Shown: positions 52,695 to 63,485, numbered from the stretch's first letter. The stretch: 64,000 nt of DNA from Gammaproteobacteria bacterium (GCA_006218035.1 VBWC01000004.1:159537-223536), one strand, 5' to 3'. Translations and numbers: made by a program. The notes: generated from the letters alone by a model not told the origin.

Positions 52695-55600
52695 TCAATT
52701 ACTGTGGCCGTGGCCGGCGCATTCAGGATGTGTTGCCGCGACGGAGCCAAACGCTTCGCAGCGAATAGTAACCGGCACTCCCTCCAGATCATCCACCAGC
52801 ATCGCTGCCTGCAACGGCGACCCCGACTCGTTCGGGGGGATACCGGCGATATAGCGCATGCCGGGCATTGCTGGCGGCGATAGCGCCACGGTCAAGAAGC
52901 CGTTTACAAAACTGAAGTCGTAGTTCCCGGAACTCAGCGTGCCCGGCGCTGCAACAATGTCGTAACTTCCCGGCACACTCGTTGAATCCGCCGTCGTCGT
53001 CAGTAGCGGGATGCCACCGACGTCTGAGGTTGCCAGCGTTTCGCCGGTCACCCATCCGGCGTACGTCGCGGTCAGCACGGGGTTCGTCTCGCCTTCCGTG
53101 CGCGACTTGTTGTCCGCCGTCACCGTCAGCGGCCGTTTGCTAATCGTCGCCGTCGTGGTCTGGTCGGCGATCGCATAGTTGCCGACATCGGTCCCGCTCA
53201 AACCGAGACCGCTGACGGTCACTGTCTTGCCGCTGCCGGCGTTCCTGGTATCGAAGCTCGCGCTCGCGCTACCGCTGTTGAGACCGACGGTGTCCGCACC
53301 GATCACGCCTGACAATGTCCCATAGCTCGTGACCGTCGCGTCCGTATTGCCGTCGTAGACCTTGTCGGCGGCCGTCAGACCCGTCAGCGTCAGGCTCTTC
53401 GCCGTGATATCGGCCGTCGTTACATGATTGGCGATGCTGTAGTTGCCGGCGTCTGTTCCGCTCAGGCCGAGGCCGCTGACGGTCACGGTCTTGCCGATGC
53501 CGACGTTGCGCGTATCGAAGCCCGCACTCGTACCACCGCTGTTCAGGCTGACGGCATCGGCACCAATCACGCCCGATAAAGTGCCGTAACCTGATACTGT
53601 CGCATTCGTATTACCGTCGTAGACCTTGTCGCTCGCTGCCAGACCCGATAGCGTCAGACTCTTCGCCGTGATATCCGCCGTGGTGGCGACACTGGCACTG
53701 GCAAGCTGATAGTTACCGGCCAGCCCGCCGTTGGTCCCGTCCACCGCGGTATAACCACTCGCCGTCACGGTCTTGCCGACGCCAACGTTCCTGGTGTCGA
53801 ACGTCACCGTCGTTGGCGCGCTCAGCAGCAGCGTCTCGCTGCCGATCAGACCGGACAGTGCGCCGATACTGCCGAGCGTCGCTGCTGTCGTTGCGTCATA
53901 AACCTTGTTCTGTGCGGCAAGCCCGCTGATCGTTACCGTCGCCTTGTTGATCGTGCCGCTGCCGCCGATACCGCTGCTCGCCAGCGATCCCAGGCTGTAG
54001 TTGGCCGCAGCGGCCCCGGACAGACTCAGCCCCGAAAGCGTATAGCCGGGGGCACCGGCGTTCTTGTTGTTGTATTGCCCGGCACCGACGACCGACACGT
54101 CATCGCCGCCCACCGTATTGGTGATCGTCGCCGTCGCACCGGTCAGCCCCACCCCGCCGTCATAGGTCTTGCTGACGGCGTTGGTCGACACCGTGACCGG
54201 GCGCGGCGTAACCACGAGATCGCCGTCCTGCACCGCGGTCAGATTGAAATTGTTGTTGCCGGTCCTGGTGACCACGGCGGTAATCGCGTAGGTACCCACC
54301 GGGGACGCCGCGGTGACCGGTGTACTGACGTCAACGCTGGCTGTGCCGCCCAGCCCGTCGTCAGCGGTCCAGTTGTCACCACCGTTGTTTGTCAACACCA
54401 GCGTCCGTATGCTCGTGGCGCTGGTACAGCTGCTGGCAGGACAGTACCGCGCACTGCCAACCACCAGCGGCGGCAGCGGATTACCGTAGACCTTCGCGGC
54501 GTCGCTCAATACCACCAGCAAGGTATCCGCCGGATAAATCGTAAACGTGCCAGCGGCCGGCGTGATGACGTAGTTCGCCGAGTTCGCTGAGGGCGTGATC
54601 GTGTACGTGCCGGAAGTCTCGCCCGCCGCACGCGTGATCGTTACATTCGACAGTACCGCCGCCGTCTCGCCGTTGACGAAGCCGCTGTAGCTCGCCGTGA
54701 GCGACGGATCACTGTCGAAGATGATTTTCGCCGCGTCGTTGGCAGTCATCGTCAACGGCGCCTGATTGATCGTGCCGCTGCCATCGACCCAGACCAGCGT
54801 GTAGTTGGCTGCATCCGCACCGGTCAGTGCGAGCGAACTGCGCAGTACCTGATGAGCGCCCGCGTTAACGCCGTCATACACGGCGGCACCCGCAATACTG
54901 GCGCTGTCACCGCCAACCAGCCCGGTACCGGCCCCGGCGCCGACGGTGTACCCCGGCTCGCCGGCTGGCATCGCCGACGTGCCGTTGTAGGTCCGGTCGA
55001 CTGCCGCCTTGCCGGTCAGGTTCACCGGGCGTGATGTGATGTTGGCCGTCACCGCCGCACTGGCGCTGGCGAGCTGATAGTTGCTGGCGAGCCCGCCGTT
55101 GGTTCCGTCGGCGAGGGTGTAGCCAGCGGCGGTCACGGTCTTGCCGGTGCCGACGTTCTTGCTGGAAAACGTCACCGTCGCCGGGGCATTGAGCACCAAT
55201 GTTTCACTGCCGACAAATCCACTCAGACTGCCACCGCTGCTCAACGTCGCCGCAGTATTGGCATCGTAAACCTTATTGTTCGCTGCGACACCACTGATCG
55301 TTACCGTCCTGGGTGTGATGTCGGCCGTGGTCACGTGATCGGCGATGCTGTAGTTGCCGGCACTGGCGCCGCTCAGACCGAGGCCGCTGACGGTAACCGT
55401 CTTGCCGATGCCGACGTTCTTGGTATCGAAGGTCGCGCTGACACCGCCGCTGTTGACACTCACGGCGTCCGCGCCGATCACGCCTGACAAAGCGCCATAG
55501 CTGGAGACCGTCGCGCCGGTGTTACCGTCATAGATCTTGTTGCTGGCCGTCAGGCTCGGCAACGTCAGTGCCTTCGGATCAACGGTCAGCGTGCCGTTGG

Positions 55601-58600
55601 CGTAGTTGGTCGCGTAACCATTACCCACCGCCAGCGTCCCGGCGGCGACGGTTAGCGCATAAGGCGAACCGGCCACCGCGGCACTGGCCGCCGCGCCGGC
55701 GGATGCCAGTGTCGGCGCACTGCTCAGTACGTTGCCGGCGGCATCCTGCGTAAACACATTGCCGTAGGTGGCGGCATTGACGAAGCCGGACACGCTGTAA
55801 TCGGTACTGAGTACCGGGCTGGCGAGGTTCACCGTGTCACCATAGGTCTTGGTCTTGTTGCTCGCAGTGATTGCCAGCGTCGGCTGCGTGCTGAATAGAT
55901 AGCGATTGCCGGTTTCGACCACGCTGCCCGGCGCGTAGCCGGCGTAGGTCCTGTTCCACAGCGCCTGATTCCCGCTCGCCAGACCGCCGAAGGTATTACT
56001 CGCCGGCGTCGCCGTGTAGACCAGCCAGCGGCTGCTGCCGTTCGGCGTCGTCAGCGCACCCGCGCCGATATTGTTGGTGAACTTGCCGGCGGCGATCACC
56101 AGCGCGGTGGCATCGTTGTTCGCGTTCGCCGTCAGCACGCCATTAAGCGTCACGCCATTGGTACCGCTATCGATAATCGCGATCGTATTCGCGGTCACCG
56201 CATTCAGTGCGGTGTCGGCGGCAGCGACGTTCACCGCGCCGATGTCGGTACCGACGGCGCCGAGCGTCGCGGTGCCGGCGGTATTCACAGTGAGAGTCGA
56301 ACTCGCGCCGCCGCCGACGCCGCTGATCGCGCCGGTCGTCAGGTTGAGCGCGCCACCCGTGCCCAGCGTCAACGTCTGGCCGTCGGCGATGGTGAGCGCA
56401 CCGAGCGTCAGGGCGCCGCTACCACCGACGGTCGCGCCGGTCGCCGCGGTCACCGTACCGGCCAGCGACGCCGTGCCGCTGCTCTGCAATGCGCCCAGCG
56501 CACCGACGCCGCTACCGTTGAGCGTCACCGCTTCGTTACCGATGGCGACGCCGTTGACAAGCAAGGTCGCACCGTCGGCCACCGTGGTACTGCCTGCGGT
56601 CGCACCCAACGCATTGGCATGCGCCGCGGTCAGTGTGCCCGCGCTCACCAGAGTCGCCCCGCTATAGCTGTTGTTGCCCGATAGCACTGCCGCGCCGGCG
56701 CCGGCCTTGTTCAATGCACTGGCGCCGCTGACGACGCCGGACAAGGTCAGCTGCGTGCCGGACACATTGACGATGCTGTCGGCACCCAGCGCGATCGCGC
56801 CGGACAGACTGCTGGTGCCGGTCGTTGCGGCCAGCGTGCCGCCGTTGAGTGTAACGGCTTCGGCACCGATGCCGATGTTTTGCAGATCCAGGGTCGCGCC
56901 GCTGGCGACCGTCGTGCCACCGGCGGTCGTACCCAGGGCATTCGCATGTGTCGCGGCCAGCGACCCGGTACTCACCAGGGTTGCGCCGCTGTAGGTATTG
57001 TTGCCTGACAACGTCAACGTGCCGCCGCCCTGCTTGATCAAACCGCCCGTACCGGAGGCGACACCGCTGAATGTCGTGCTGGCGTTACTACCGCCCGAGG
57101 TCAGCGTGCCGGCGCCCAGCGTGACGTTGCCACTGCCGGCGAGCGATGCGATGCTGTCATCGTTACCGTTCAGATCGTAGCTCGCACCACTTGCAGTCGT
57201 CACCGCCGTGCTATCGGACAGCACGTTCGCGGCACCGGCCTGCAAGGTGCCTGCGTTGACCGTCGTTGCGCCGCTGTAGGTATTGCTGCCGGACAGCGTG
57301 AACGTGCCGCTGCCCTGCTTGATCAGTCCGCCCGTACCGGAGGCGACACCGCTGAAGGTGGTGCTGCCGTTGTTAGCGCCGGTGGTTAACGTCGCCGAAC
57401 CCAGCGTGACGTTACCGGCGCCGGCAAGCGAACCGATCGTGTCGTCAAGACTGTTCAGATCATAGGTTGCACCACCGGCGACCGTCACCGCGGTACTGTC
57501 GGACAGCACGTTCGCCGCGCCGGCGCGCAGCATCCCGGCGCTGATCGTCGTCGCACCGGTATAGGTGTTGGCGCCGGACAAAACCGTGGTGCCGGCACCC
57601 TGCCTGGTCAGTCCACCGGCCCCCAGTGCGAGCACGCCGCTCAGCGTGCCGCTGCCGCTGGCGGTATTGATCAACAGGTTCTGGTCAGCGGTCGTGATAT
57701 TAACCGCGCCGGCGATCGCGCCGTTGGCGATCAGGCTGAGCGCGCCGGCACGGCTGGCGGCGCCGTCGGCGATCGCCCCGGTCAGCGCAATACTGCCGCC
57801 GGCACCGCCGGCCTGGAGCGTCAGCGGATCACTGTAATCGAGTCCATCAATCGTAATGACGCCGGTCTGACTGGCCGAACCGATGGTGATACCGCTGAAA
57901 CCGTTTTTGAAGATCCCGGCTGTGCCGTTCCAGAAATAACCCTGCGGCAGGCTCAACGTGCCGCCGCCCGCACCGACGCCTACGGTGGCGGACGCGGTGT
58001 TCGGCCTGACGGTCAGCGTGCCGCTACTCTCGACCTGCGTGGTCGTCGCGAGGCTGATGGAGTCACCGACCAGCGCGATGTTGCTGGACGATGCGCCGAG
58101 ATTGCCCTTTCCTATATAGCTGTTGCCGGTGAAGCGTATCGCGCTGGCATCACCGGAGACGCCAGTAATGGTGATAGCGCCGCTGCCGGATTGTATATAG
58201 CCGGTACCGGCGGCGGGCAAGTCGCTCTCGATCACGACACCGTGGTTACTGCCACCGGAGCCGCCGCTGCCGCCCTGGCCGATGAGCGAGATCGCGCCAC
58301 TGCCGGACTGCACCAGAGAATTCTGCCGCAGGTTAACACCATAACTCGATCCACCGGCACCGGAGTTGGTGCCGCCGACGCCGTTGAGTGTGATGGTACC
58401 CGTGCCGCTGGTGATGAGCTGACTGCCGGTGTCGAATTCAATACCCTTGTTGTCACCGGTGCTGGTGCCGCCCTTGCCGAACAGGCTGATATTGCCGCCG
58501 GCGGCGTTGAGCGTGACGTTCGAGTTAAAGCGGATGCCGTCCTCGTTCGGCGATACCGTTCTGCCAACGGCGTAGTCACTGGCCGGATTCGTGCCGCCGC

Positions 58601-61439
58601 CCAGCGTAATGTTGCCACCGTTGCTGGCGATGCCGACGGTTGAACCTAACTGGACGCGGCCCGACTCGTCGTTGTCCGAGTCCGACCACAGCGTAACGGC
58701 GAGCGCGCCGGTCGACGACGTAATGCCGCTGTTGTCGCCGAGCACGACATCGCGCGTCGTCTTGATCGTCAGCGCCGCATTGCCGCCGCTCGCGTTACTG
58801 ATTGTCCGGCTCGCCGGCAGAGTGAAATCGGTGCTGGCCGCGGTCTGGGTCAACGTGGTGGCGGCTGCGCCTAGCGTGAGATTGCCGTTATAGGTCTGCG
58901 TACCGGTCGTGGTGACGCCGCCGCCGTTGATCGCAACCGTGTTCGCGGTCACGCTGACGGCACCGAGCGCCTTGTTACTACCGACCAGATTCGTGAACGT
59001 CGTGGTCGCGGTGCCCGAGTTAACCGTCAGCGGCGACTGCGAGGCATTAGTCTCCCTGACATAGCCGAGTGGCGCCGTACTGGTCCTGGCGAGATCGTTC
59101 CAGCGACCGGCGGTGCCGGTAAATTGCAGCGTACTTTCGTATTCGGTCGTGAGCGGCTGGTTTGCTACACCACCCGACCAGTTGTTCGGCTCGCTGGCGC
59201 TCCAGTTGGTATAGGCGCCGTTGATCGCCGTGCCGCCGGAGCTGCCGCTGTTCTGCGTGAAGAACTGGCGGCCGTTGCCGCTGTCTTCCAGCCCTTCCGC
59301 TCCGGTCACCCAGCGCCAGTTGGCGTCGGTGCCGAGACCGACGACGCGGCGCGCGCCCAGCCACGACGCCACGTAACCGGCCGCGCTGCCGGCGATGCTG
59401 TTCTCCAGCTGACTGGTGATCGTCGCGAGATAGGTATCGCCGGTGGCGTCGCCGTTACCCGATTTGGCGTTGGCGACCGCCGTGTCCCAGTTCACCGCGC
59501 CGGCCACATAGGTATAGGTATTGCCGGAATCGACCTTGCCGTGGAAGGTCACGGCGCCGTCGGTACCGGCGTTGGTCGAGTTGATCGTCAGCCCGTTGGT
59601 GTTGCCGATCAGCAGGTCACCGCGAAAATCCACGGCGCCGCCGAGGGTCGTGAAGCTGCGTGCGCCGCTGCCGCCGACGTAGACGCCGTCCTTGAAATCC
59701 AGGCTGCCGCCGTTGGTGCTGATGTCCTGGTTCGCGACGATCGAGCCGGTCCCTGCCTCGAGCACAACATTCAGAATACCGTTACTGGCGCTGATGCCGG
59801 CATCCAGAATGATGTCCTGCGCAGCATTCAGTGTCAGTGTCGCGGTGTTGTTGCCGGTCTTGGCGATCGCCGAACTCAGGGTGATGCGGCCTTGCTGGGT
59901 GCCGGTGGCGCCGGTGGTAATCGTGACGCTGGTGCCACCGTTAAGGCTGGTATTGATCGTCGCGACATTGGCCGTGGCATTATCGGCGGTTGGCGTAAAG
60001 GTATTCGGTGAGCCGCTGTCGAAACTGCCGTTGGCGGTGCTGGAGGTAATCGTCACGTTGCGTGGATCGAGCAGCCATACGCCGGCGCGGCCGAACGCCG
60101 CGCTGGCGTCCACTGCACCCATGGCCTGCAGGTTGTCGTGACTGGAGGTTTCGACACTGCCGCCATCACCGCCAGCGCCACCGCCGCGCGCGAGGATCTG
60201 TCCGTAAAAGCCGGTGTAGCGCTCCGACCACAGCACCACGGTGCCGCCGTCGCCATGATCGATCGCATTTGCATCGATGCGCGCACCTGTCGACATAACC
60301 ACCGCATCGGCGTTGCGTATCGCGTGATCATTCCCGTGCCAGCCGCCACCGATGGTGACCTGTCCGCCGCCGGTTTGGCCATTGGCGGAAATCGCTGCGT
60401 TATCGAACAGTCCCACCTGCGCCGCGGTCACCGTCACCCGGCCACCTTGCGCACCATTGCCGTTGCCATCAGCCAACATAACGCCGGTCACAATCGCCGT
60501 GTCACCCGCCTGCACTTCGATGCGGCCGCCGTTACCGCTCGCATTACTGGCGTCCAGCGTTCCACTCGATTCGATGGCATTCGACGCGTCCAGAACGATG
60601 ACGCCGTCATGCACCGCAAGCCCGGTCGCCGCGATATGGCCGCTGTTGTTAACAATACCGCCCAGCAGGCTGTTAGCGGCGCGTGCCGCGAGTATGACCA
60701 TGCCGCCCGGCGTGACTATCGCGTGACGGTTCTCGACCAGCGCCTGCAGGCGCGACTCGTCGACGAGCACACTGCTCAGCAACCCATCGTCGAACTGCAG
60801 AGTGAACGCCTCACCCGCGGCAAGTGCGACGGTGCCGAGGCGCGCGGTCATCACACCGTCATTACGCACCTCGTCGGCGAGCAGTGCGAGATACCCCCGG
60901 TCGTGCGTATTGAGATCGGCCTCGTTGATAACGGCGCCGCCGGAACCGGCGCGCGTGAAACGCAGTATTCCGTTCAGAAAATTATCGTCGCTGATCTGAT
61001 GCGTGGTCGCGACCAGTGCGCCGACATCGACCTGCGCGCCCGGCGCGAAATACACGCCCTGCGGATTGGTGAGAAACACCTGGCCGTTGGCCGTCAACCG
61101 GCCGAATATCTGGCTCGCCTGCGTATCCAGCACCCGGTTGAGTGCCACGGACGATGACGACGGCTGATTGAAATTGACGTGCGCGTCGCGACCGACGTTA
61201 AATGTTTGCCAGTCGACAATCGCCTTGTCCGTTGTCTGGTCGATATCCAGTCTGGCGCCCGACTGACGTACTGTCGCAGTACCGGCGCTGACCCGATCCA
61301 GCGCCGGCAGCGTACTGGATTCCACGGCGGTCTGTGCTTGCGCGCCGCACATCGCGGAGAGACACAACACCGCAGCGGCCGACAGGAACAGCCGGCGGCA
61401 GCATGTGATTTCTTCGCTTTGGCGCGTCGCTGTGAGCAT
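52695..61439 (-). CDS. Two-partner secretion exoprotein (FHA/HMW-like adhesin) with C-type lectin domain
   Basis: A 2914-residue surface adhesin. Signal peptide (L-F-L-S-A-A-A-V-L-C-L), then a TPS domain (F-N-Q-P-S-S-S-S-V-A-L-N-R-V, V-F-L-T-N-P-Q-G-V) to about residue 290. A beta-helix follows, then a C-type-lectin-like domain (about 640-800) with E-P-N and W-N-D motifs and no cysteines. Next are autotransporter-type repeats (N-T-Y-S-G-A-T, A-A-N-V-L-S-D-S-T-A-V) and many YDG/MBG-type repeats (K-V-Y-D-G-N-T). The last residues carry two Cys 12 apart, as in HMW1-like anchored exoproteins. It starts one base after its transporter gene ends. Repeats are high-identity, so assembly should be checked. 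Confidence 0.93.
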   Translation of the reverse strand: MLTATRQSEEITCCRRLFLSAAAVLCLSAMCGAQAQTAVESSTLPALDRVSAGTATVRQSGARLDIDQTTDKAIVDWQTFNVGRDAHVNFNQPSSSSVALNRVLDTQASQIFGRLTANGQVFLTNPQGVYFAPGAQVDVGALVATTHQISDDNFLNGILRFTRAGSGGAVINEADLNTHDRGYLALLADEVRNDGVMTARLGTVALAAGEAFTLQFDDGLLSSVLVDESRLQALVENRHAIVTPGGMVILAARAANSLLGGIVNNSGHIAATGLAVHDGVIVLDASNAIESSGTLDASNASGNGGRIEVQAGDTAIVTGVMLADGNGNGAQGGRVTVTAAQVGLFDNAAISANGQTGGGQVTIGGGWHGNDHAIRNADAVVMSTGARIDANAIDHGDGGTVVLWSERYTGFYGQILARGGGAGGDGGSVETSSHDNLQAMGAVDASAAFGRAGVWLLDPRNVTITSSTANGSFDSGSPNTFTPTADNATANVATINTSLNGGTSVTITTGATGTQQGRITLSSAIAKTGNNTATLTLNAAQDIILDAGISASNGILNVVLEAGTGSIVANQDISTNGGSLDFKDGVYVGGSGARSFTTLGGAVDFRGDLLIGNTNGLTINSTNAGTDGAVTFHGKVDSGNTYTYVAGAVNWDTAVANAKSGNGDATGDTYLATITSQLENSIAGSAAGYVASWLGARRVVGLGTDANWRWVTGAEGLEDSGNGRQFFTQNSGSSGGTAINGAYTNWSASEPNNWSGGVANQPLTTEYESTLQFTGTAGRWNDLARTSTAPLGYVRETNASQSPLTVNSGTATTTFTNLVGSNKALGAVSVTANTVAINGGGVTTTGTQTYNGNLTLGAAATTLTQTAASTDFTLPASRTISNASGGNAALTIKTTRDVVLGDNSGITSSTGALAVTLWSDSDNDESGRVQLGSTVGIASNGGNITLGGGTNPASDYAVGRTVSPNEDGIRFNSNVTLNAAGGNISLFGKGGTSTGDNKGIEFDTGSQLITSGTGTITLNGVGGTNSGAGGSSYGVNLRQNSLVQSGSGAISLIGQGGSGGSGGSNHGVVIESDLPAAGTGYIQSGSGAITITGVSGDASAIRFTGNSYIGKGNLGASSSNIALVGDSISLATTTQVESSGTLTVRPNTASATVGVGAGGGTLSLPQGYFWNGTAGIFKNGFSGITIGSASQTGVITIDGLDYSDPLTLQAGGAGGSIALTGAIADGAASRAGALSLIANGAIAGAVNITTADQNLLINTASGSGTLSGVLALGAGGLTRQGAGTTVLSGANTYTGATTISAGMLRAGAANVLSDSTAVTVAGGATYDLNSLDDTIGSLAGAGNVTLGSATLTTGANNGSTTFSGVASGTGGLIKQGSGTFTLSGSNTYSGATTVNAGTLQAGAANVLSDSTAVTTASGASYDLNGNDDSIASLAGSGNVTLGAGTLTSGGSNASTTFSGVASGTGGLIKQGGGTLTLSGNNTYSGATLVSTGSLAATHANALGTTAGGTTVASGATLDLQNIGIGAEAVTLNGGTLAATTGTSSLSGAIALGADSIVNVSGTQLTLSGVVSGASALNKAGAGAAVLSGNNSYSGATLVSAGTLTAAHANALGATAGSTTVADGATLLVNGVAIGNEAVTLNGSGVGALGALQSSGTASLAGTVTAATGATVGGSGALTLGALTIADGQTLTLGTGGALNLTTGAISGVGGGASSTLTVNTAGTATLGAVGTDIGAVNVAAADTALNAVTANTIAIIDSGTNGVTLNGVLTANANNDATALVIAAGKFTNNIGAGALTTPNGSSRWLVYTATPASNTFGGLASGNQALWNRTYAGYAPGSVVETGNRYLFSTQPTLAITASNKTKTYGDTVNLASPVLSTDYSVSGFVNAATYGNVFTQDAAGNVLSSAPTLASAGAAASAAVAGSPYALTVAAGTLAVGNGYATNYANGTLTVDPKALTLPSLTASNKIYDGNTGATVSSYGALSGVIGADAVSVNSGGVSATFDTKNVGIGKTVTVSGLGLSGASAGNYSIADHVTTADITPRTVTISGVAANNKVYDANTAATLSSGGSLSGFVGSETLVLNAPATVTFSSKNVGTGKTVTAAGYTLADGTNGGLASNYQLASASAAVTANITSRPVNLTGKAAVDRTYNGTSAMPAGEPGYTVGAGAGTGLVGGDSASIAGAAVYDGVNAGAHQVLRSSLALTGADAANYTLVWVDGSGTINQAPLTMTANDAAKIIFDSDPSLTASYSGFVNGETAAVLSNVTITRAAGETSGTYTITPSANSANYVITPAAGTFTIYPADTLLVVLSDAAKVYGNPLPPLVVGSARYCPASSCTSATSIRTLVLTNNGGDNWTADDGLGGTASVDVSTPVTAASPVGTYAITAVVTRTGNNNFNLTAVQDGDLVVTPRPVTVSTNAVSKTYDGGVGLTGATATITNTVGGDDVSVVGAGQYNNKNAGAPGYTLSGLSLSGAAAANYSLGSLASSGIGGSGTINKATVTISGLAAQNKVYDATTAATLGSIGALSGLIGSETLLLSAPTTVTFDTRNVGVGKTVTASGYTAVDGTNGGLAGNYQLASASVATTADITAKSLTLSGLAASDKVYDGNTNATVSGYGTLSGVIGADAVSLNSGGTSAGFDTRNVGIGKTVTVSGLGLSGTDAGNYSIANHVTTADITAKSLTLTGLTAADKVYDGNTDATVTSYGTLSGVIGADTVGLNSGSASASFDTRNAGSGKTVTVSGLGLSGTDVGNYAIADQTTTATISKRPLTVTADNKSRTEGETNPVLTATYAGWVTGETLATSDVGGIPLLTTTADSTSVPGSYDIVAAPGTLSSGNYDFSFVNGFLTVALSPPAMPGMRYIAGIPPNESGSPLQAAMLVDDLEGVPVTIRCEAFGSVAATHPECAGHGHSN
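56640..57610 (-). repeat. Tandem passenger-type repeats in the adhesin gene
   Basis: Near-identical units encode T-L-S-G-x-N-T-Y-S-G-A-T, A-A-N-V-L-S-D-S-T-A-V and T-F-S-G-V-A-S-G-T-G-G. The DNA copies (for example around 57000-57080 and 57290-57370) are almost the same, so copy number may vary. Confidence 0.75.
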
Positions 61440-61440
61440 C

Positions 61441-63123
61441 TCAGAATGCGTACTGGAGGTTCAACCAGATACGGTCCCTGCGCAGGCTTCCGTCCCGGTC
61501 CGCGCCGCTCGACAAGCGGTTCGGGTTATCACCAAGCCGCTGCGCCCAGGTGAAATTGGCATTGATATTTGAGCGCGGCGACCAGAGCAGCGACAGGCCA
61601 ACGCCTTGCAGTGAATAACGGTTAAACCCGGGCGCACCCGGGAAATTGTTGTCGTCGTTCTGGCGGATGGAACCGTAGTCGTAGAACGTCGCCAGCGTCG
61701 CCGTGGCGCTGGCCCGGTGGCGCAACTCCAGCGACACCACGTAACCTTCATCGCCGCTGCCTTCGCTGACAGGATAGGCACGTACGCCGGTCGGCCCGCC
61801 CAGCGCGAAATGTTCGGAAGAATCGAGATTGGTACTGGCGAACTGTGCGACCGCACGCAGATAGATGGCGGCATTCGCCGACAGCCGCTGTAACCGGCTG
61901 GCATTCATCGCGACCAGCTGGTAATCGCCGTGCGTCGCTGCCGTCAGATCGTCAAGTGTCTTGCTTGGCGATCCGTCGAGATCGACCCGACCGGCGACCA
62001 GATCAACGTCCCACTCCGTTGACCCGCCCGGCCCAAAGCCGTCATCATGATTGCCCTGCACGCCGAGCGCGAGCCGGTTGACCCGGTAATCGCTATCGAC
62101 CGTTCCCAGGGAGCGGTTCTGATAATGGCGGCCTTCCGCGGTGGCGCTGACGAAAAGATTGCTATGGCGGCCGCGCAGCAACGCATAGGTGACGTCGGCG
62201 CCGGCCGTGTCGCCGTCGCCCTCGGCCGCGAGGCTGCTGAATTCCTCGCCAAGTTCATACGGCAAATTCGAGTAGTAGGCGCCGACGCGCCAGCCGTCAC
62301 TGCCGATCGGCATGCCGTAGTGCAGACGCCCGTAATGCGCGAGTTGACTGCCGAGCAAGGTCGCACTCAACACGTCGCCTCGGCCGGCCGGGCTGTTCCA
62401 GTGGAGCTGCCCGATCACACGTTCCTCGCCGGTAGCACGAGCACCGGCGTTATCAACCATGATATTTCCCGTGACCGGCGCCTCATCGACGATCATCACC
62501 TGCAGATCGGTCTTCCCTTCGGTATCGCCGGGCACCAGCGCCGCGGTGACACCGACGCCCGCCAGATCATTCGCCAGCAGTACACCGCGTTCCAGTTTGT
62601 CGAGTCGGACCGGCTGACCCGGCGCATGCGCGGTATCGACGATGCTTTCAACGAAGGCGTGCGACACACGCGCAATACCACCGGCCACACGAGCCCCGCC
62701 GAACACTGCCTCGATGACATGGATGGTGACAACACCTTCGACGATTTTCTGCGGCGGCAGGTACGCGAATGCGATGTATCCGGCGCGTTGATAACGCTGC
62801 GTCACACGACTCACGGCCTCCTGCAAATCGTCGAACGTCAGCGGCCGGTGCAGCATGTCTTCCAGCGCACCGGCAAGTTGCTCGCTGGACATGAGTTGAT
62901 TACCCTCGAACCTGAATACACTGGCCGTCACGGTCACCCCTGGCAGGTTGTGCGGCGGCCGGATGGCGGGTGTCTCGATAGGCGGGGCGGCATCGGGCGA
63001 CTTCTCGAACGTGGCGCGTTCCGCATCCCGCATCAGGTCCCCGGCGCCGGGTGCGGCCTGCGCAACCGCCGGCAACGCGAGCGTTAACCCGATCGCCATC
63101 CATTTCCGTATGGAATGTTGCAT
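61441..63123 (-). CDS. Two-partner secretion transporter (TpsB, ShlB/FhaC family)
   Basis: An outer-membrane transporter for the adjacent adhesin. The start is placed at 63123 (M-Q-H-S-I-R-K-W), giving a signal peptide L-T-L-A-L-P-A-V-A-Q-A. Two POTRA-like domains follow (V-F-R-F-E-G-N-Q-L-M, Y-Q-R-A-G-Y-I-A-F-A-Y-L-P-P-Q). The barrel includes the loop-6 motif G-V-R-A-Y-P (VRGY/F type) and the protein ends W-L-N-L-Q-Y-A-F with terminal Phe. An N-terminal 63147 start is less likely. Confidence 0.94.
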   Translation of the reverse strand: MQHSIRKWMAIGLTLALPAVAQAAPGAGDLMRDAERATFEKSPDAAPPIETPAIRPPHNLPGVTVTASVFRFEGNQLMSSEQLAGALEDMLHRPLTFDDLQEAVSRVTQRYQRAGYIAFAYLPPQKIVEGVVTIHVIEAVFGGARVAGGIARVSHAFVESIVDTAHAPGQPVRLDKLERGVLLANDLAGVGVTAALVPGDTEGKTDLQVMIVDEAPVTGNIMVDNAGARATGEERVIGQLHWNSPAGRGDVLSATLLGSQLAHYGRLHYGMPIGSDGWRVGAYYSNLPYELGEEFSSLAAEGDGDTAGADVTYALLRGRHSNLFVSATAEGRHYQNRSLGTVDSDYRVNRLALGVQGNHDDGFGPGGSTEWDVDLVAGRVDLDGSPSKTLDDLTAATHGDYQLVAMNASRLQRLSANAAIYLRAVAQFASTNLDSSEHFALGGPTGVRAYPVSEGSGDEGYVVSLELRHRASATATLATFYDYGSIRQNDDNNFPGAPGFNRYSLQGVGLSLLWSPRSNINANFTWAQRLGDNPNRLSSGADRDGSLRRDRIWLNLQYAF

Positions 63124-63485
63124 TGCAAACCGTTCCGGTACGCACACGTCCGTTGTATAAAAATTTCCGTTATCCCGCGCATCCCCTGGGCATACCGACA
63201 GACCTACCCGCGAGAACGGTCGAGGCCGTAGCGCTTTTATCGGCCGGGGCGCTGATTAATTAATTAGAATCTATAAGTTACCGGCCGACAGCGGGCGCAG
63301 GCCGGCGATGTTTTGCTATAATCGCGCGGCGCGGCGCGCCCGGCATCCGACACCGGGACAGCGTAGTCACTCGAACGGCGCCCGGCAGGCCGGGTACCGA
63401 TCCAGTTAACTCCCCGGGAAATAAAGATTTTCCGTGCCGGGCCGTTGCATATAGTCAGAACTGAATTTGATACGGGAGCGCGACG
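63124..63485. other. Divergent intergenic region between tpsB and moeB-like gene
   Basis: About 360 bases that must hold both promoters. I found no RNA gene or clear palindrome. The minus-strand frame at 63264-63914 is antisense to the MoeB-like gene and has no protein character. Confidence 0.5.

Follow-up and report, generated by a model that had tools for sequence, protein, structure and literature searches.

Results

A two-partner secretion locus encodes an exoprotein with a lectin-like domain

The window, meaning the whole 64,000-nucleotide stretch of DNA from an environmental Gammaproteobacteria bacterium (GCA_006218035.1) that was analysed, contains a two-partner secretion (TPS) gene pair on its minus strand, in which tpsB lies directly upstream of tpsA (Table 1). 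The 2914-residue product of tpsA is a two-partner secretion TpsA protein with its cognate TpsB adjoining: it has an N-terminal TPS domain and a long beta-helix, and the neighbouring TpsB carries a POTRA domain and an FhaC-type barrel. Pfam places the YDG repeat (PF18657) in seven stretches of TpsA and the MBG_2 repeat (PF18676) in four. This TPS domain was the only one found in the source genome, which is 3.0 Mb in size and belongs to an order covered by just two of the genomes available. Housekeeping genes flank the locus, with dnaG, rpoD, tRNA-Met and a flavoprotein oxidoreductase on one side and a rhodanese/ThiF protein on the other, and its GC content (0.61-0.68) is somewhat higher than that on the dnaG/rpoD side.

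Table 1. Features of the tps locus, with coordinates counted from the first nucleotide of the window.
Feature	Coordinates	Strand	Basis
tpsB, outer-membrane transporter	61441..63147	-	ShlB/FhaC barrel PF03865 6.7e-25; POTRA_2 PF08479 1.6e-14
tpsA, 2914-residue exoprotein	52695..61439	-	TPS domain, PATR, YDG and MBG repeats, inserted CTLD
TPS secretion domain, TpsA residues 54-295	60555..61280	-	PF05860 E 1.7e-38
C-type-lectin-like domain (CTLD), residues 634-796	59052..59540	-	Profile against PDB, hhalign, Lectin_C in relatives, break in beta-helix
WRWVTG, residues 708-713	59301..59318	-	Motif reading
EPN, residues 750-752 (predicted Ca2+ site-2 ligands E750 and N752)	59184..59192	-	Alignment of 14 CTLDs
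E768, third acidic Ca2+ site-2 ligand (predicted)	59136..59138	-	Present in 13 of 14 CTLDs
WND, residues 780-782 (predicted ligands N781 and D782)	59094..59102	-	Alignment
YDG/MBG repeat region, residues ~1800-2860	52860..56042	-	Borders approximate
C-terminal cysteine pair C2894/C2907	52719..52760	-	Possible anchor loop, by analogy with HMW1/HxuA

A first-pass annotation of this DNA had proposed a C-type-lectin-like domain (CTLD) at 59050-59520 from the motifs W-x-W-V-T-G, EPN and WND. All three motifs are at that place, in frame on the minus strand, as is a WLG motif (residues 693-695); the proposed location was right, but the domain really runs from 59540 to 59052, about 20 bases longer. 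Each of the patterns W[IL]G, W.WV, EPN and WND has a single occurrence in TpsA, within the CTLD and in that order, and 7 of the 18 tryptophans of the protein fall within the domain. When the region was shuffled 20,000 times, the ordered set WLG-WxW-EPN-WND never arose (0/20000), and EPN-WND alone arose three times (3/20000).

The cysteines of TpsA are at residues 13, 14, 26, 31, 2333, 2338, 2894 and 2907, so that, as the annotation had held, there are none among residues 634-796. Because it lacks cysteines, this predicted domain is classed as a subtype and kept apart from the canonical disulphide-bonded CTLDs. Cysteines are also missing from most of the bacterial CTLDs found here, for which reason the idea that their absence is a TpsA-specific trait was dropped. 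Among the relatives, the congener also has the C2894/C2907 pair and L006 has two cysteines close to its C-terminus; L004, L005 and L018 have none near theirs. Residues 2333-2338 form a lone C-x4-C pair, CPASSC (window 54426-54443, minus strand), within the YDG/MBG region, and the L005 frame has a similar C-x4-C at residues 904-909.

The domain is homologous to C-type lectins

Neither the full-length window protein nor the domain cut out of it matched Pfam Lectin_C, NCBIfam found no CTLD in the window protein, and phmmer with the single domain sequence gave zero matches in the PDB. A search of the domain's own genome with PF00059 also gave no match, but control genomes were equally silent. The window sequence by itself has diverged too far for Pfam or phmmer to recognise, and the CTLD call rests on relatives. 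Two profiles were built, one from the seven TpsA-borne CTLD copies only (A5) and one that adds other bacterial CTLDs (A3). At E<=10, the PDB search with A5 returned 48 distinct sequences, all of them (48/48) C-type lectins or C-type-lectin-like proteins, the best match being CLEC4F (4e-4), followed by CD23 and mannose-binding protein C. With A3, E-values of about 1e-12 to 1e-17 were reached for CD23, langerin, SP-D and mannose-binding proteins; these matches are less independent because A3 itself includes clear CTLDs. When A5 was aligned with seven bacterial CTLDs using hhalign, the match spanned the whole domain (99.6%, E 1.6e-24). Additionally, Pfam detects Lectin_C at E<=1 in 10 of 14 relatives; in the long frame of the G053 protein this match is at the aligned place with an E of 8.8e-4, just below the curated cut-off.

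The motifs might instead have arisen by chance or convergence in a low-complexity beta-helix with no CTLD present, a reading that draws on the failure of Pfam and phmmer with the window sequence and on the low confidence of the AlphaFold2 model presented below. The uniform identity of the PDB matches, the hhalign result, the shuffle counts and the Pfam matches at the same place in direct relatives all argue against it, and we strongly disfavour it, to the point of giving it almost no credence. CTLD homology, as first annotated, is borne out by the TpsA-only profile, hhalign and the Lectin_C matches of the relatives, and the predicted identity of the domain is well supported at that level.

The domain interrupts the TpsA beta-helix

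As a structural check asked for beforehand, the excised CTLD was modelled with AlphaFold2 from a six-sequence alignment, yielding a pLDDT of 38. The order of elements in this low-confidence model is CTLD-like, and its nearest PDB folds are C-type lectins at non-significant Foldseek E-values of 0.2 or worse. As the isolated model is poor, the assignment of a CTLD fold rests on homology.

In an AlphaFold2 model of residues 450-960 (five sequences), the only stretch for which the beta-helix was read from its strand pattern, short repeated strands of fair to good confidence extend to about residue 634 and resume from about residue 800, and residues 638-789 form a low-confidence block between these flanks. 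Since beta-helix strands lie on both sides of the break, the CTLD is an insert in the beta-helix. Flanking sequences are common to the copies, with 'VTFxGxVDSGNxY' before the CTLD and 'YVxETNxAxSxLxxNAGxG' after it. A strict regular-expression search found no uninterrupted rungs of the same pattern; a looser rung pattern found one in the G708 protein, from residue 1186 (LTISAGTGNVSFGGSVGG), which resembles the rung after the insert. The TPS domain, the modelled flanking helix and the shared flank sequences therefore agree with the original placement of the domain inside a TpsA beta-helix.

The predicted Ca2+ site is complete and the adjacent loop is enlarged

The alignment places all five Ca2+ site-2 ligands in the window CTLD (E750, N752, E768, N781 and D782), and none of them varies among the seven TpsA copies. 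In a set of 14 CTLDs, the three EPN residues and the Asp of WND do not vary either, and L012 is the one sequence without the third Glu and the WND Asn. Because the Ca2+/sugar site is complete by sequence, this domain is probably the part of the protein that grips polysaccharides.

The spacing from N752 to E768 is 16 residues in the window vs 6 in the G053 copy (EPNNNGNNE), which gives the window CTLD a ten-residue insert after EPN, in the loop beside the predicted sugar site. This insert suggests that the sugar face is remodelled and that the choice of sugar is not readable from EPN, a motif that is no proof of sugar specificity in any case. The mannose/GlcNAc-type preference first proposed, with mannose as the default, would accordingly be a guess.

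A CTLD whose motifs are intact may still have a protein or another kind of ligand, and members of the intimin/invasin family, which bind proteins, are adhesins with a CTLD in the passenger. The window domain could similarly have the fold and not bind sugar, serving as a Ca2+-stabilised or Ca2+-free module for a protein receptor or another adhesin, and the larger loop after EPN fits such a use. We judge this unlikely, as all five ligands, which protein binding would not need, have been kept in seven TpsA copies from three lineages. The presence of CTLDs in intimin/invasin adhesins is documented (PMC3008723).

The architecture is rare, scattered and constrained

A scan of ~85,000 species genomes yielded five loci, four of which encode TpsA proteins, and whole-genome searches added the TpsA copies G053 and G708. 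The TPS plus CTLD layout was thereby found in six further loci, each with a TPS domain. The near-identical copy is L003. The copies come from Gammaproteobacteria, Burkholderiales (L005, L006) and Alphaproteobacteria (L004), with G708 belonging to the same phylum as the window and to a different class. Just upstream in G001, L004, G053 and G708 there is a frame whose C-terminal end is TpsB-like, by sequence reading, the Pfam test having been applied to the window. The architecture is thus rare yet scattered widely over Proteobacteria. Plasmid records gave no match. The viral contigs yielded 29 pattern matches and no relative, and hence no sign of a phage link.

Between the window and its congener, the CTLD is 95% identical and has the lowest dN/dS of the segments tested (0.089, vs 0.226 for signal plus TPS domain, 0.164 for the following helix and 0.186 for the whole protein), an approximate figure, as it comes from one genome pair with 8 non-synonymous changes. 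Compared with the distant copies, identity is 39-54% for the CTLD, 40-48% for the TPS domain and 24-49% for the helix right after the CTLD.

These values bear on whether the CTLD, as a structural insert, might do no more than space or cap a beta-helix turn, with adhesion residing in the beta-helix or the repeats. There is precedent in EtpA of enterotoxigenic E. coli, a TpsA lectin for GalNAc/blood group A whose binding needs beta-helical repeat modules and which has no lectin domain, its sole inserts being extra-helical loops of the N-terminal domain (PMC11463764). Most TPS-bearing genomes, moreover, have no visible CTLD-bearing TpsA: in a class sample of 369 genomes, 122 have a TPS domain and 3 (the window, the congener and G053) have such a protein. 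The low dN/dS of the CTLD and the conservation of its ligand residues weigh against a purely structural role, which we hold to be very unlikely.

Several other proteins were observed during these searches. L020 (G239:C84) has a CTLD in a 14,112-residue open frame with many beta-helix-like repeats, on a contig listed without a TPS match. A TPS domain at G053:C1:290030-290788 lies in a 29,206-residue open frame; this closed genome of 1.9 Mb also encodes a CTLD-bearing TpsA. In genome G927, L034:1090-2085 (plus strand) encodes a 332-residue flagellin-like protein in which Flagellin_N (1.3e-8) is followed by Lectin_C (5.5e-8), possibly a flagellin whose variable middle is a CTLD. Genome G931 encodes two proteins of ~240 amino acids (L035 and L039) in which a hydrophobic stretch lies at the N-terminus and the CTLD-like region has neither EPN nor WND.

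Discussion

The window CTLD shares profile homology and the Ca2+ site-2 ligands with the animal EPN C-type lectins (mannose-binding protein, langerin, CD23; PF00059), and both have WLG, WxW, EPN, the third Glu, WND and a closing YV-E. Unlike the animal proteins, it has no cysteines and hence none of their conserved disulphides, long inserts precede Y743 and follow EPN, and the domain sits within a secreted bacterial rod, under the Pfam cut-off. Other bacterial surface CTLDs (L007, L013, L016, L032 and L040) are the same domain by profile-profile comparison, keep EPN and WND and are mostly cysteine-free; these are carried on other scaffolds, whereas the window CTLD is an insert in a TPS beta-helix. 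The intimin/invasin adhesins, exported by type Ve secretion, differ from the window TpsA in export route, in their Ig-like stalk and in having protein receptors.

The closest functional parallel is offered by CdrA of Pseudomonas aeruginosa, which like the window protein belongs to a TpsA/TpsB pair and is a surface adhesin. Aggregation by CdrA is inhibited by mannose, and the protein binds the mannose-rich polysaccharide Psl (PMC2847200, PMC10903470); it has been described as a filament tipped by a sugar-binding region (PMC10903470). Sugar binding by CdrA was assigned by prediction to a glycine-rich PROSITE domain at residues 332-477, with no CTLD reported there (PMC2847200), and in this CdrA differs from the window protein. 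CTLDs in intimin/invasin, and TpsA lectin activity through other regions in EtpA and CdrA, are thus already known. In the open literature on two-partner secretion and filamentous haemagglutinin, so far as it was covered, no description of a CTLD within a TpsA was found, and domain databases may contain CTLD-bearing TpsAs that have gone unremarked.

TpsB transporters export their TpsA partners as unfolded chains. The window TpsA would, after such export, fold outside the cell as a long beta-helix in which one inter-rung turn, by its position and homology, is extended by what is predicted to be an independently folding, cysteine-free CTLD. The five aligned ligands would hold one Ca2+, which, as in animal C-type lectins, may contact neighbouring sugar hydroxyls. 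The CTLD belongs to the N-terminal portion of the rod, with the YDG/MBG repeats and C-terminal cysteine pair at the opposite end, so the CTLD is probably toward the distal end. HMW1 and HxuA are TpsA proteins retained in TpsB by a disulphide loop at the C-terminus (PMC5422565); if C2894/C2907 act in the same way, the CTLD would face outward. A distal lectin could then attach the cell to glycans on other cells or to the exopolysaccharide in its own matrix, and the sugar-specific attachment suggested in the first-pass annotation is plausible.

With moderate confidence, we favour the interpretation that the tps pair is a secretion system whose exported rod bears a cysteine-free, Ca2+-dependent lectin module with a CdrA-like role. 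More tentatively, TpsAs with an in-rung CTLD might make up an undescribed adhesin subfamily, in which an animal-lectin-like, disulphide-free Ca2+ site in one conserved turn serves the rod as its polysaccharide-binding head and has been retained in Gammaproteobacteria, Alphaproteobacteria and Burkholderiales.

Large TPS adhesins help biofilm cohesion, and the part that grips sugar is known for few of them. Standard annotation of TpsAs of this kind gives just 'filamentous haemagglutinin', and Pfam and NCBIfam miss the window CTLD. The domain is compact and its Ca2+/sugar site can be recognised, which gives TpsA proteins a binding part that is directly testable, and its position indicates that secretion by a route for unfolded protein leaves room for a CTLD within a beta-helix.
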